Shown piece by piece: positions 5,704 to 30,443 of a DNA stretch of 38,097 nt. Position 1 is the stretch's first letter; every line of letters starts with the position of its first letter. A model generated the notes under the pieces. It saw only the letters and a list, made by a program, of their open reading frames with translations, was not told the origin of the DNA and searched no databases. The translations under genes were made by a program, and so were the position numbers. This stretch comes from Lysobacterales bacterium (GTDB lineage: Bacteria > Pseudomonadota > Gammaproteobacteria > Xanthomonadales > Marinicellaceae), in assembly GCA_020442725.1 (NCBI GenBank), contig JAGRJO010000002.1, positions 1 to 38,097 of the forward strand. The letters are read 5' to 3'.

Positions 5704-7419
5704 ATGAAAAAAGTATTTACATTTATCGGTTTAATGTTGGCATCTGTTCATAGTTTGGCTGTTCCGGTCACTTTAGGAAACGACGCAAATTGCACTTACA
5801 ACATCGCAAATACTAGCATTCAAAATTTGGTTGATGCCTTTGCAGGTGAGATTCGTGTAACCAAACAGGTCGAAATTATTGAGAATATTCAGATTGACAG
5901 GAGTATTACCATACAGGGAGGATATGAAAATTGTAATGATGCAGCATTGGGAATCAAAAATGGTGTTACAACAATTAACGGCAATAATCAGGCACCGGTA
6001 ATTAGTATTTCTGATGGGAATGATCTTATAACAGTTATAATTGACAGCTTGAAGTTAAAAAATGGTGTTGGACTTGGTAGTCAACATGGTGGGGGTATTT
6101 CAGTTAGAGAAACTAACAATAATGGTATAAAAATTGTTCTCAGAAGAAGTATTGTGAGTAATAATAATGGAAATTTTGGAGGTGGAGTTTTTCTCTATGG
6201 TCCCAGTGTTTCTCTAAGTCTCGAAGAATCAAAGATTTTGTCTAATGAAGCAGTTTACAATGGTGGTGGTATCTATTGTCATCAAGGATTTGTAAGACTT
6301 AGCAAGGATAGTGGAATCATATTAAATAGTGCATATAATTCATCAAATTCATACGGTCTAGGTGGTGGATTGTATGCCGGATCAGGTTGCGAAGTGGAAA
6401 TTCGATCAGGCACCAGTGGTTCTTTGTTCAATTTCAAAGGCATTGCAGGAAACTCATCCAGTAATCATGGAGGTGGAATCTATGCTCAAGGCGGATCTGT
6501 TGTTAAACTACAAAGCTACTTAATAGATGAATTTATTAACATTACAGAAAACTTTGCAGATTCCAACTTTAATGGGAGTGGTGAAGGTGGGGCCGCGTAT
6601 CTAACTGGTGCTGGAACAAAGCTGGAAGTTTATGGTGGTTTGATAAAAGAGAATTCAGCGGTTCATGGTGGTGGAATATCTGTTAATAATGCAGCAGAAC
6701 TAATTGTAGGCAAGTTCAACGGAAGTTGCTGGAATCAAAAAAACTGCAATCAGATTGTAGCCAATGAGGCAACTACAAATGGTGGATTTGGTGGAGCAAT
6801 TTACTCTATAGGCGGAAATATTGATATTTCTTACACGGATATTTCAGACAACCGTGCTGATAATGGAGTGGTTTTATATGCTGATTTTGGTGCAGACATC
6901 AAAGTGAGAGCATCAATGGTACATGATAATGGTGCAGGAAATGCAGACGGTTGGGAAGATATCTACAACTTTAGTATTCACAATAGCGATTTCATTATGA
7001 ATCATGTGACCTCTGCTTACAACGATGTAATAGGGTCTTCGCTTCGAATTGATGGTGGTAGCTATACTTTGGAAAATTCAATTATCTATGATCCTGATCC
7101 GGGCGTTACGGCTTCAATGACTGGCGTCACTGGGATTGAAAACTGTCTGGTTGTAAATTCAAGCGACGGTTTGAATCAATTTACTCAATCATTAGTTGCT
7201 TTTCCTAACTTTATTGATGTTGTCAACCGTGACTACCATGTGCGTGGACATTCAGAAGCAGCTGATTTGTGCCCAAGTACAGTAAACTCATTGGATCAGG
7301 ATTTTGAAGGGCAGAATATATGGGATGATCCGAGTCAGGTTAACATATTCGGCTTCAGAGATGCCGGAGCCGATGAAACCTATCTTTCAGATACTATCTT
7401 TGCAAGCGGGTTTGATTGA
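5704..7419 (+). CDS. Secreted right-handed beta-helix protein with C-terminal DxIFxxGFD tail
   Basis: A 571-residue exported protein. Residues 1-19 form a signal peptide (MKKVFTFIGLMLASVHSLA). The body is a string of short repeats built on GGGI/GGGL/GGAIY turns (HGGGISV, FGGGVFL, NGGGIYC, LGGGLYA, HGGGIYAQGG, HGGGISVNN, GGFGGAIYS), as in parallel beta-helix or polymorphic-outer-membrane-type proteins. Cysteines are few. The last residues, DTIFASGFD (563-571), match the tail of the unrelated protein encoded next. Such folds serve as adhesins or polysaccharide-active enzymes; I see no catalytic motif and give no function. AAAAGGAG lies before the ATG. The gene follows the methyltransferase gene by 27 bp and may be co-transcribed with it. 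Confidence 0.8.
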   Translation: MKKVFTFIGLMLASVHSLAVPVTLGNDANCTYNIANTSIQNLVDAFAGEIRVTKQVEIIENIQIDRSITIQGGYENCNDAALGIKNGVTTINGNNQAPVISISDGNDLITVIIDSLKLKNGVGLGSQHGGGISVRETNNNGIKIVLRRSIVSNNNGNFGGGVFLYGPSVSLSLEESKILSNEAVYNGGGIYCHQGFVRLSKDSGIILNSAYNSSNSYGLGGGLYAGSGCEVEIRSGTSGSLFNFKGIAGNSSSNHGGGIYAQGGSVVKLQSYLIDEFINITENFADSNFNGSGEGGAAYLTGAGTKLEVYGGLIKENSAVHGGGISVNNAAELIVGKFNGSCWNQKNCNQIVANEATTNGGFGGAIYSIGGNIDISYTDISDNRADNGVVLYADFGADIKVRASMVHDNGAGNADGWEDIYNFSIHNSDFIMNHVTSAYNDVIGSSLRIDGGSYTLENSIIYDPDPGVTASMTGVTGIENCLVVNSSDGLNQFTQSLVAFPNFIDVVNRDYHVRGHSEAADLCPSTVNSLDQDFEGQNIWDDPSQVNIFGFRDAGADETYLSDTIFASGFD

Positions 7420-7432
7420 TAAATGATTGTTA

Positions 7433-7528
7433 ACCATGAAGAGCATGAAGTTATTGAAGGATATTAATCATACAAATTACAAAAATCTCAGTTTATAAAA
7501 ACTTTATGTACTTCATGTACTTTATGGT
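7433..7528. repeat. Imperfect intergenic inverted repeat with ATGAAG units
   Basis: The left arm ACCATGAAGAGCATGAAGT (7433-7451) pairs at 16 of 19 positions with the right arm ending ACTTTATGGT (7510-7528). The arms contain ATGAAG units about 10 bp apart. It resembles the dispersed CATGAAG/CACGAAG intergenic repeats seen in many bacterial genomes. It lies just after the beta-helix gene. Confidence 0.5.
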
Positions 7529-7564
7529 GAAATCTAACTTTGTGGTTTTAACAAAAGCATTTGA

Positions 7565-7605
7565 CCCACTAATCTGTTTTCTCTTTTTCAGGTTGGTGGG
7601 TTTTT
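7565..7605 (+). terminator. Rho-independent terminator after the beta-helix gene
   Basis: CCCACTAATCTG (7565-7576) pairs with CAGGTTGGTGGG (7589-7600), using a few G-U pairs, around a 12-nt pyrimidine-rich loop. It is followed by TTTTT. Confidence 0.8.
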
Positions 7606-7638
7606 GTTTGTACAATCCTCAATATAACAAGCAATAGA

Positions 7639-7666
7639 TTGACGCTCTCAAATTTTAGCTTAGAAT
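7639..7666 (+). promoter_or_regulatory. Sigma-70-like promoter for the SpoIID-like gene
   Basis: TTGACG (7639-7644), a 16-bp spacer and TAGAAT (7661-7666) lie about 37 bp before the start at 7704, just downstream of the terminator. This makes the SpoIID-like gene its own transcription unit. Confidence 0.5.
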
Positions 7667-7703
7667 GATTCGATAACTATCTGTGTTATTTAGATGATTA
7701 TCA

Positions 7704-9539
7704 ATGTGTAAAGTAATAAAGGTTCTGTTATTTGGATATTTATCAATATCAATAGTGCAAGCAGATTCACTTAAAGTCCGTGACAGCCAAACTGGTGCAT
7801 TGATTGATGCTGAAATTCTGATTCAATCAATTGATGCCAATGATTTAACTACTGAAGATTTAAGGAATATCAAACTTGGTAAAAAGCCATTGGCTGATAT
7901 TTTAATACTCAATTCAGAAGTTATCTATACACAAAAAACTGCCGTTCAATTATCACCCGGTTCTGATTTTCGTCTGCTTACAGTCTCAGCTGATGGTTAT
8001 AAAACTTTACAAACTTACATAAATGCAAACTCGAATGTTGTGCTTGAGCAAATAATGCTTGATCAATCAGTATATGAGCCGAAATCTAGAAATCTCTGTG
8101 AAGATTCAACTCTCTGTGGTTATATTTATGATAAAAATTCCGGTATGCCTCTGCGCAATGTGGCTATTAGTGTTAATAATGATTCAGATAAAACGGAAAC
8201 TTATACAGATGATTATGGTTTGTTTTATTTTAGTGAAAAATTACCGGAAACTATTGAGATTTTAATACAACAGCAAGGTTATCAATCTCAATTATTGACA
8301 GAGGTTGGTACGGGTTCATCATTGCAAATGGTGATTGACCTCGATGCTGGAAGTGGCATTAAAAAAATAGATATGACACACCCTCTGAAAAAAGGTGGAT
8401 TTAAAGATAGAAACTCTCAATGGGTTAGAGCAAAGCTTTCTCATCAACCAAGTGAATATAACTTACCCGTTATTCTTGAAAGATCATCCGGTGCGGTTTA
8501 TCTTGAACCTCCGGCCAGTATTCGGGTGGGCTTTAGCAGTACAGGCGGAACTTGTTGCGGTTCCAATTGCTCAACCAGTCAGGTTTACTCGCTGGAAACT
8601 TATGTTCAGCGAGGTCTGGATAATGAGTGGATTTCATCGTGGGATTCCGACAGTTTAAAGGCTGGCAGTATTCCATATCGTTCTTACGGTGCATGGCATG
8701 TCATCAATGGCACTTATCCCGGATATGATATTTGTGCCGGACCTTGTTGTCAGGCATTCGGATATACCGGATATTCGTCCACTATGAATGCAGCTGCTGC
8801 TACCAATGGGATAATGCTCGATTTAAACGGAGAATTGGCTCGGTCTGAATATTCAGCCCAAAATAACAGTTGGGATGACCCCAATGACGGATTAAGTTGC
8901 ACGAATGTGGATTTATCTTGTGGTAACGGATATGTTGGTTCTCCATCTGCCGGATGGCCTTGTTTATCCGATTCTTTATCCAGCAATCATGGTTGTTTTG
9001 GACATGGTCGGGGAATGTCGCAATGGGGAACTCAATATCAGGCTTTAAACGGTAGCAGTTTTGCGGATATTGTTGATTTTTACTATAATGCCAATAACAA
9101 TCCCTCAGGCATGCGGAGTCAATTCGCCAGCACCCCGATTCGACTGAACTCCATTGCAATCAGTGATTCTGTTATCAATCAAAATGAACTCTTGACGATT
9201 TATTTTAATATTTTTAACTCAAGTGATACCAACCAACCTTTCGGTCCGGTTTTGCTTGGTGCTAGTCTATATGACGGCGTTGCATATTTTTCAGATCTCG
9301 CCAATGATGTCAGTACTACTGTTAATCAAGCAGGTGTTTCGGTTCTGGACAGACCTTTTCAGTTAGATGCGAGCGTGTTACCTGGAATATATGATTTAAT
9401 AACGGCTCTCTACTTGGATGTTGATGGCAATAATCAAATCTCATCTGCCGATTGGTTGTTGCAAGTATATACTCAAACTGGTGCTCTGGAAGTTTTGGAA
9501 GAAGGTGATTTGATTTTTAGAGATGGGTTTGAGTTATGA
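7704..9539 (+). CDS. Secreted SpoIID/LytB-domain protein with C-terminal DxIFxxGFE tail
   Basis: A 611-residue exported protein with an N-terminal signal peptide (cleavage near VQA, about 20). A carboxypeptidase-regulatory-like beta-sandwich segment lies at about 136-195 (LCGYIYDKNSGMPLRNVAIS). The SpoIID-like domain, about 270-455, has SLETYVQRGLDNEW, SLKAGSIPYRSYGAW and GHGRGMSQWG. E308 occupies the place of the SpoIID catalytic glutamate. SpoIID proteins cleave glycan strands of peptidoglycan. Unlike spore SpoIID, this one is cysteine-rich (CCGSNC, CAGPCC), implying disulfides outside the cytoplasm. A C-terminal beta-rich region of about 130 residues ends in DLIFRDGFEL (602-611). No clear Shine-Dalgarno precedes the ATG. 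Substrate and true role are uncertain. Confidence 0.8.
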   Translation: MCKVIKVLLFGYLSISIVQADSLKVRDSQTGALIDAEILIQSIDANDLTTEDLRNIKLGKKPLADILILNSEVIYTQKTAVQLSPGSDFRLLTVSADGYKTLQTYINANSNVVLEQIMLDQSVYEPKSRNLCEDSTLCGYIYDKNSGMPLRNVAISVNNDSDKTETYTDDYGLFYFSEKLPETIEILIQQQGYQSQLLTEVGTGSSLQMVIDLDAGSGIKKIDMTHPLKKGGFKDRNSQWVRAKLSHQPSEYNLPVILERSSGAVYLEPPASIRVGFSSTGGTCCGSNCSTSQVYSLETYVQRGLDNEWISSWDSDSLKAGSIPYRSYGAWHVINGTYPGYDICAGPCCQAFGYTGYSSTMNAAAATNGIMLDLNGELARSEYSAQNNSWDDPNDGLSCTNVDLSCGNGYVGSPSAGWPCLSDSLSSNHGCFGHGRGMSQWGTQYQALNGSSFADIVDFYYNANNNPSGMRSQFASTPIRLNSIAISDSVINQNELLTIYFNIFNSSDTNQPFGPVLLGASLYDGVAYFSDLANDVSTTVNQAGVSVLDRPFQLDASVLPGIYDLITALYLDVDGNNQISSADWLLQVYTQTGALEVLEEGDLIFRDGFEL

Positions 9540-29745: not shown

Positions 29746-30443
29746 AAATCCACCCTGATAGGCGAGGTGAAAAATGCACCTTTTTCAGTCTGGTGATTTT
29801 TAAATTTGGATTTGATTTTTTGCATCAACTCATCGGAGATTTGATGCTCGGTATGAGTGACATTGATGACATTTTGCTCAAATTCTTCAAAGTCTTTAAA
29901 AACTCTGGGAGTGTTAAAAAAGATTTGTTTAATGAGTGAAAGTTCTTTTTTATTAATGCTTTCCACAATCGCCTCGAAAGCAGCCTTTCTGACTATTTCT
30001 TCATCATGAAAAAGCCTGAGGATTTCATTAAAATCGCCGGCAAAGACCGGTTCGGAAATATAGGCTTTTCCCTTTGGCTTTAATACACGAGAAACTTCAG
30101 AAAGAGCTTTTTGCATTAACTCTTGTGGAACATGGTGTAATGACTTAAACATTAAAATAATATCAAAACTATTATCATCAAATGGCAAATCCTGAGCACC
30201 AGCCAATATAAAGTCAACATTTGGCAAATCTGAAATTTCCAGATTTTTTTCATGCTGAATAGTATCAACTTCAGTGGCAACAATCTTTCTGTCAAAACCC
30301 GTAGTGGCAATCTGACGAGTGATTTGAGCTTTTCCACATCCCAATTCCAAAATGTTTTTGTTATCAAAATCAAGAACTTCATTTAGAGTTTCGCTTTCTG
30401 GACAAGTTCTGTCAGAAATTGTATCGGGCTTCATTGCAATCAT
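29733..30443 (-). CDS. Class I SAM-dependent methyltransferase
   Basis: A 236-residue soluble protein with the Methyltransf_11-type Rossmann motifs: NILELGCGKAQITRQIA (motif I), KIVATEVD, GAQDLPFDDNSFDIILMFKSLHH and LSEVSRVLKPKGKAYISEP. The target molecule is unknown. The long helical C-terminal part may form the substrate lid. Its ATG overlaps the gltX stop (ATGA), and its 3' end overlaps the flavoprotein gene, so the three are transcribed together. Confidence 0.88.
   Translation of the reverse strand: MIAMKPDTISDRTCPESETLNEVLDFDNKNILELGCGKAQITRQIATTGFDRKIVATEVDTIQHEKNLEISDLPNVDFILAGAQDLPFDDNSFDIILMFKSLHHVPQELMQKALSEVSRVLKPKGKAYISEPVFAGDFNEILRLFHDEEIVRKAAFEAIVESINKKELSLIKQIFFNTPRVFKDFEEFEQNVINVTHTEHQISDELMQKIKSKFKNHQTEKGAFFTSPIRVDLLTK

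Follow-up and report, generated by a model that had tools for sequence, protein, structure and literature searches.

Exported proteins of the order Xanthomonadales/Lysobacterales share a nine-residue motif, D-x-I-F-x-x-G-F-[DE], usually at the very end of the chain and apparently a label, not described before, that marks them for secretion or surface attachment. The motif was noticed in a 38,097-nucleotide stretch of a Lysobacterales bacterium (Marinicellaceae; contig JAGRJO010000002.1; the whole stretch is hereafter the window), where two adjacent plus-strand genes encode proteins with unrelated bodies and this common tail. A preliminary description, made from the letters of the window alone, had pointed out the pair; the two-gene observation was confirmed, and its scale proved much larger, with the motif (hereafter the tag) present on many unrelated exported proteins per genome. 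We tentatively read the tag, at somewhat below an even chance, as a short portable sorting signal on exoproteins of the type II secretion system (T2SS), most likely read at the outer-membrane step by T2SS-A, one of the two T2SSs found in these genomes.

The two tails of the window were read directly in the sequence (Table 1), and the tag of the first protein starts one codon ahead of the position 7393 given earlier. Both proteins begin with a predicted signal peptide. The beta-helix-like protein matches no Pfam or NCBIfam family, while the SpoIID-like protein shows matches above cut-off to Pfam PF13620, PF13715 and PF08486 and a match below cut-off to NCBIfam TIGR02669; in neither protein does a Pfam or NCBIfam match extend over the tail. 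The claims that the tail has no hydrophobic segment or basic end, and that it belongs to no named family, were likewise borne out, the latter in Pfam and NCBIfam searches. AlphaFold modelling gave low confidence both for the SpoIID-like protein (mean pLDDT 32) and for a small family of tagged proteins (mean pLDDT 53) and is uninformative on the tail.

Table 1 The two tagged genes of the window and their parts (window positions).
Feature	Position	Strand	Description	Basis
ORF	5704..7419	+	571-aa exported beta-helix-like protein with tag	Open reading frame (ORF) and signal peptide
Signal peptide	5704..5760	+	Predicted Sec signal peptide MKKVFTFIGLMLASVHSLA of the 571-aa protein	Read from sequence; cleavage site inferred
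Tag	7390..7416	+	C-terminal tag DTIFASGFD of the 571-aa protein	
ORF	7704..9539	+	611-aa exported CarboxypepD_reg and SpoIID/LytB-like protein with tag	Pfam matches
Signal peptide	7704..7763	+	Predicted Sec signal peptide MCKVIKVLLFGYLSISIVQA of the 611-aa protein	Read from sequence; cleavage site inferred
Tag	9507..9533	+	C-terminal tag DLIFRDGFE of the 611-aa protein, followed by one L and the stop (protein end DLIFRDGFEL)	

The scan proposed in the preliminary description was carried out on the genome and its relatives with degenerate DNA patterns, the reversed pattern serving as the control. The pattern for IF..GF[DE], ATHTTYNNNNNNGGNTTYGAN, has 38 matches in the window genome (a 2.38 Mb draft, 74.5% complete) and 2 in the reversed form. 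About 30 of the 38 fall in ORFs terminating in or a few residues past xIFxxGF[DE]; the remainder include a few chance matches, and at two loci (L009, L014) the motif lies inside the protein. A third match in the window, at 29796-29815, is one due to chance, being antisense to a coding gene, without the leading D and not C-terminal. A stricter pattern that includes the leading D, GAYNNNATHTTYNNNNNNGGNTTYGA, occurs in 50 of 61 relatives, with as many as 78 copies in one genome and 2 control matches in total. The column profile of the tag is D-[L/V]-I-F-x-[N/D/S/H]-G-F-[E/D]. Since the wobble positions vary freely, it is the protein sequence and not the DNA that is conserved, which together with the reversed-pattern controls rules out chance or a DNA repeat.

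The tag is confined to the order, with only background outside it. In a class-wide sample of 369 genomes, about 30 genomes outside the order contain one or two matches each, against about 10 for the control. Among the matches listed, named genomes with the exact-end pattern are mainly Marinicella, Dokdonella, Tahibacter, Rudaea, Pseudofulvimonas, Pseudomarimonas and Wenzhouxiangella, joined by unclassified Lysobacterales/Xanthomonadales metagenome-assembled genomes and scattered single matches elsewhere. The tail pattern followed by a TAA stop also occurs in six IMG/VR viral contigs (L255-L260).

The tagged proteins are exported and diverse. By the same simple heuristic, a signal peptide was assigned to 123 of 138 tagged proteins and to 262 of 724 untagged neighbouring ORFs, so the tag is not equally frequent on cytoplasmic proteins; some DUF1501 members have Tat-like RR signals. 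Nor is it limited to a few paralogues, as 68 tagged proteins, drawn from two genomes, have matches to 60 Pfam families, including S8, M14, M12B, M28 and C25 peptidases, endonuclease I, GSDH, FG-GAP, PPC and DUF1501. The NCBIfam names of the bodies, taken at E up to 0.1 and not at NCBI's own cut-offs, include rhombosortase-, myxosortase- and type IX secretion system (T9SS)-dependent M36 peptidases, choice-of-anchor J/O/Q, ExeM/NucH nuclease, LapA aminopeptidase and PelZ pectate lyase. Judged by these names, the tagged bodies appear to be families that elsewhere bear sorting tags or are known as exoenzymes. No model of the tag itself is among the top 25 families for the 68 proteins. Shared ancestry of C-terminal domains, a further doubt raised in the preliminary description, does not explain the tag either, because DUF1501 homologues end at the family's own C-terminus or have the tag appended. 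Specifically, in 9 of the 17 copies read from genomes with the GspD of T2SS-A (GspD-A; A+ genomes, those lacking it being A-), the tag or a near-tag (DPIFAASFD, DRIFANGFQ) comes after the conserved C-terminus, and most of the A+ genomes that use the tag have such an appended copy; no homologue read from an A- genome bears it. These endings show the tag as an apparent add-on to DUF1501 homologues.

Placement was counted in genomes whose hits had not been selected by position (the window genome, G012, G055, G041 and five others). In 103 of the 119 copies the C-terminus is at most 12 residues away, and 2 further copies lie 14-20 residues from the chain end; 6 stand directly behind the signal peptide (e.g., ...AQDAIFADGFD... 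in L122) and about 5 are internal. Tandem double tags close the chain at three loci (L085, L092, L048). In a set partly selected for such ends, 148 of 220 distinct tagged ORFs stop right after [DE]. As copies also occur behind the signal peptide, internally and in tandem, the tag is a portable linear motif with a preference for chain ends, and not a C-terminal domain or a strictly C-terminal tag. The proposal of a sorting, secretion or attachment signal in the preliminary description is supported, none of the three refuting conditions set there having been borne out, and its strictly C-terminal setting is not, given the copies after signal peptides, in internal loops and in tandem. In two genomes (G024 and G019) tag pairs are 27-36 bp apart. 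The internal copy of L014 (498-2711; G000:C130) precedes the catalytic domain of a C25/PorU-like gingipain-family protease in a gammaproteobacterium.

GspD searches and inspection of the loci around the matches, with GspD present in 59 of the 61 relatives, distinguish two systems. T2SS-A, a canonical T2SS, comprises a gspC-D-E-F operon, which in Marinicella stands beside ftsEX-looking genes, and in several genomes a second cluster, gspG-H-I-J-K-L-M-N; in its GspC an HR-like region and a PDZ-like domain can be recognized. T2SS-B follows the Xps order gspE-F-G-H-I-J-K-L-M-N-D. The window genome holds gspDEF of T2SS-A on contig C75 and T2SS-B genes on C367. Pfam PF03934 (GspK), a short helix-hairpin model that also matches other proteins, was unfit for counting and served to point to the gspG-N cluster. 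The T2SS-A loci viewed contain nothing recurrent besides standard gsp genes and housekeeping neighbours, so no extra gene stands out there as a candidate. Just after T2SS-B, in the window genome (L410, G000:C367, 5804-7331) and nearly all tagged relatives (L306, L307, L309 and others), lies an NpdA-like gene, a label given because it neighbours the T2SS cluster and because size and signal peptide agree with the description of NpdA in PMC10765051, with no direct comparison to the NpdA sequence. This arrangement suggests that tagged genomes may have a surface layer (S-layer) with its own T2SS.

In raw counts the tag is strongly associated with T2SS-A across the order. The 113 of 250 genomes with GspD-A hold 1485 of the 1556 strict tags, a mean of 13.1 per genome against 0.5 in the others. 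In family f12, five of six A+ genomes are heavily tagged and none of the 46 A- genomes has two or more tags; in family f2, both A+ genomes are tagged and 49 of 51 A- genomes carry none. G011, a complete genome from the same family as the window, lacks both GspD and tags. Variant [LV]F..GFE tails (14 in G445, 6 in G048 and 2 in G038) account for some A+ genomes in which the strict motif is missing. T2SS-B is an unlikely reader, since f2 and f12 genomes with this system only are untagged, and the linked NpdA-like protein has no tag in any case examined.

If T2SS-A reads the tag, the tagged proteins would cross the inner membrane via Sec or Tat and fold in the periplasm, leaving the nine residues accessible in a loop or at one end of the chain. 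We infer that recognition would then occur at the outer-membrane step by T2SS-A (gspCDEF plus gspGHIJKLMN), for example through the GspC HR or PDZ domains or the GspD N-domains. With two T2SSs per cell, the tag would separate exoenzymes, sent to T2SS-A, from the untagged NpdA-like S-layer protein, the presumed substrate of T2SS-B. A more specific claim, that the tag is a true short, linear and transplantable T2SS secretion signal, serving at most about 80 unrelated proteins per genome and working at either chain end, we consider possible but doubtful.

Several observations weigh against recognition by T2SS-A. Two genomes of family f8 (G480, G452) have real tags with neither GspD-A nor GspC, and two less complete genomes (G439, G448) are also tagged without T2SS-A, while the GspD-A of G027 is a fragment at a contig edge. 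Conversely, genus g12 of family f9 (G040, G447, G429 and others) keeps T2SS-A with almost no tags, and T2SS-A therefore works without the tag. The Fisher p value of 1.5e-20 for the association of tag and T2SS-A is inflated because the genomes are related: a tree of GspD-B from 47 genomes shows only about five changes of the A state, and tags (at least 5) follow that state in about 3.0 independent contrasts and oppose it in 0.2, so that the sign test is not significant. Furthermore, the NpdA-like gene tracks nearly the same lineages as T2SS-A. With only about five independent changes, neither the T2SS-A link nor the NpdA-like link is proven.

We know of no description of the motif, and none turned up when the literature was searched with its letter strings and host genera, most subscription journals being outside the coverage. 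The PEP-CTERM, MYXO-CTERM and IPTL-CTERM tags of the exosortase/myxosortase type are many-to-one labels on diverse, lineage-restricted sets of exported proteins, and the tag resembles them in this respect. Those labels are tripartite (motif, transmembrane helix and basic end) and cleaved, whereas the nine-residue tag has none of the three parts, is not strictly C-terminal and matched no curated model in the Pfam and NCBIfam searches. The C-terminal domains of the T9SS in Bacteroidota, also portable secretion signals on exoenzymes, are folded and span about 70-100 residues, in contrast to the nine here. The GlyGly-CTERM/rhombosortase system (PMC3237569) likewise places a C-terminal tag common to unrelated secreted proteins on similar bodies, M36 peptidases among them, in other lineages, and its best-studied bearer, VesB, is a T2SS substrate (PMC6219818, PMC12369372). 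The present tag differs from it by its length of only nine residues, by lacking the hydrophobic helix and basic end and by occurring also at the mature N-terminus or inside the chain; no paired rhomboid protease is known for it, and no rhombosortase profile search was made.

The tagged proteins share with T2SS substrates a Sec or Tat signal peptide, as judged by the heuristic, and a T2SS in the genome. How a T2SS recognizes folded substrates is a long-standing open question, and the prevailing view is that the substrates share no common linear signal (PMC7949064). Loop 3 of PelI/Pel3, an exposed nine-residue region that makes contact with GspC and GspD and serves as a specific signal for secretion by the T2SS (PMC7949064), is a precedent for an exposed nine-residue motif read at the outer-membrane step, though it is a protein-specific loop with no common sequence. 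In Vibrio, only a subset of substrates requires the GspC PDZ domain, and in the VesB Ig-fold/EpsC PDZ pathway a portable signal depends on that domain (PMC12369372); there, unlike here, the signal is a folded immunoglobulin (Ig) domain of one protein and not a short motif on dozens. A nine-residue motif shared by dozens of unrelated exoproteins, with a specific T2SS alongside, would open the recognition question to direct tests by grafting and mutagenesis.

The tag might instead be read by another receptor or processing enzyme of the Xanthomonadales envelope, with T2SS-A and the NpdA-like gene merely sharing the lineages in which that factor was lost. We regard this as somewhat unlikely, yet as a live alternative. 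It would account for the fact that neither T2SS-A nor the NpdA-like gene fully predicts the tags, genus g12 having both and almost no tags, and it gains from the small number of independent changes. Speaking against it, clustering of the ORFs around tagged genes gave no recurrent neighbour and hence no candidate for a dedicated machinery gene, with no exosortase or rhombosortase profile search made, and the mixture of N-terminal, C-terminal and internal placement is hard to reconcile with one sortase-like cleavage enzyme.

A further live alternative, unlikely in our estimate, is docking to the surface layer, by which tagged proteins secreted through a T2SS would bind the NpdA-like S-layer, or a partner, non-covalently through a minimal S-layer-binding motif. 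The NpdA-like gene stands beside T2SS-B in every examined genome with at least 3 tags, including the A-negative G480, G452, G439 and G448, and is missing there in those A- genomes of f2 and f12 that were checked. The NpdA survey does not cover G475 and G600 of f2 and G490, G522, G577 and G593 of f12. Avidity-based binding would also fit the tandem tags and the use of both chain ends. However, four genomes, G039, G049 and G057 (f8) and G040 (f9), have the NpdA-like gene and zero tags, the independent contrasts are too few, and NpdA is widespread in Beta- and other Gammaproteobacteria (PMC10765051), where the class-wide sample is without tags. Were docking correct, the tag would be a very short S-layer-attachment motif of Gram-negative bacteria. 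Under either function the tag makes it simple to predict exported proteins throughout an order of environmental bacteria, and it provides a starting point for hundreds of proteins now called hypothetical.

A structural or folding element without a sorting role, such as a beta-hairpin cap or a remnant of the start (F-x-D-G-F-E-S-G-D-x-S-x-W) of a jelly-roll-like domain spread by recombination, agrees with the turn-like x-[NDSH]-G core and with a few extended copies, yet is very improbable, given that C-terminal placement prevails in the unselected genomes, that most tagged ORFs of the partly selected set stop exactly past [DE], and that the tag sits on dozens of nearly always exported families and is gained and lost by lineage. 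In the extended copies, at L100 (G012:C12) and L131 (G041:C70), the motif continues into GFESGDVSSWS or GFETGDTSAWT, resembling the start of a jelly-roll-like domain. By this resemblance, such a domain start is a possible evolutionary source of the tag.

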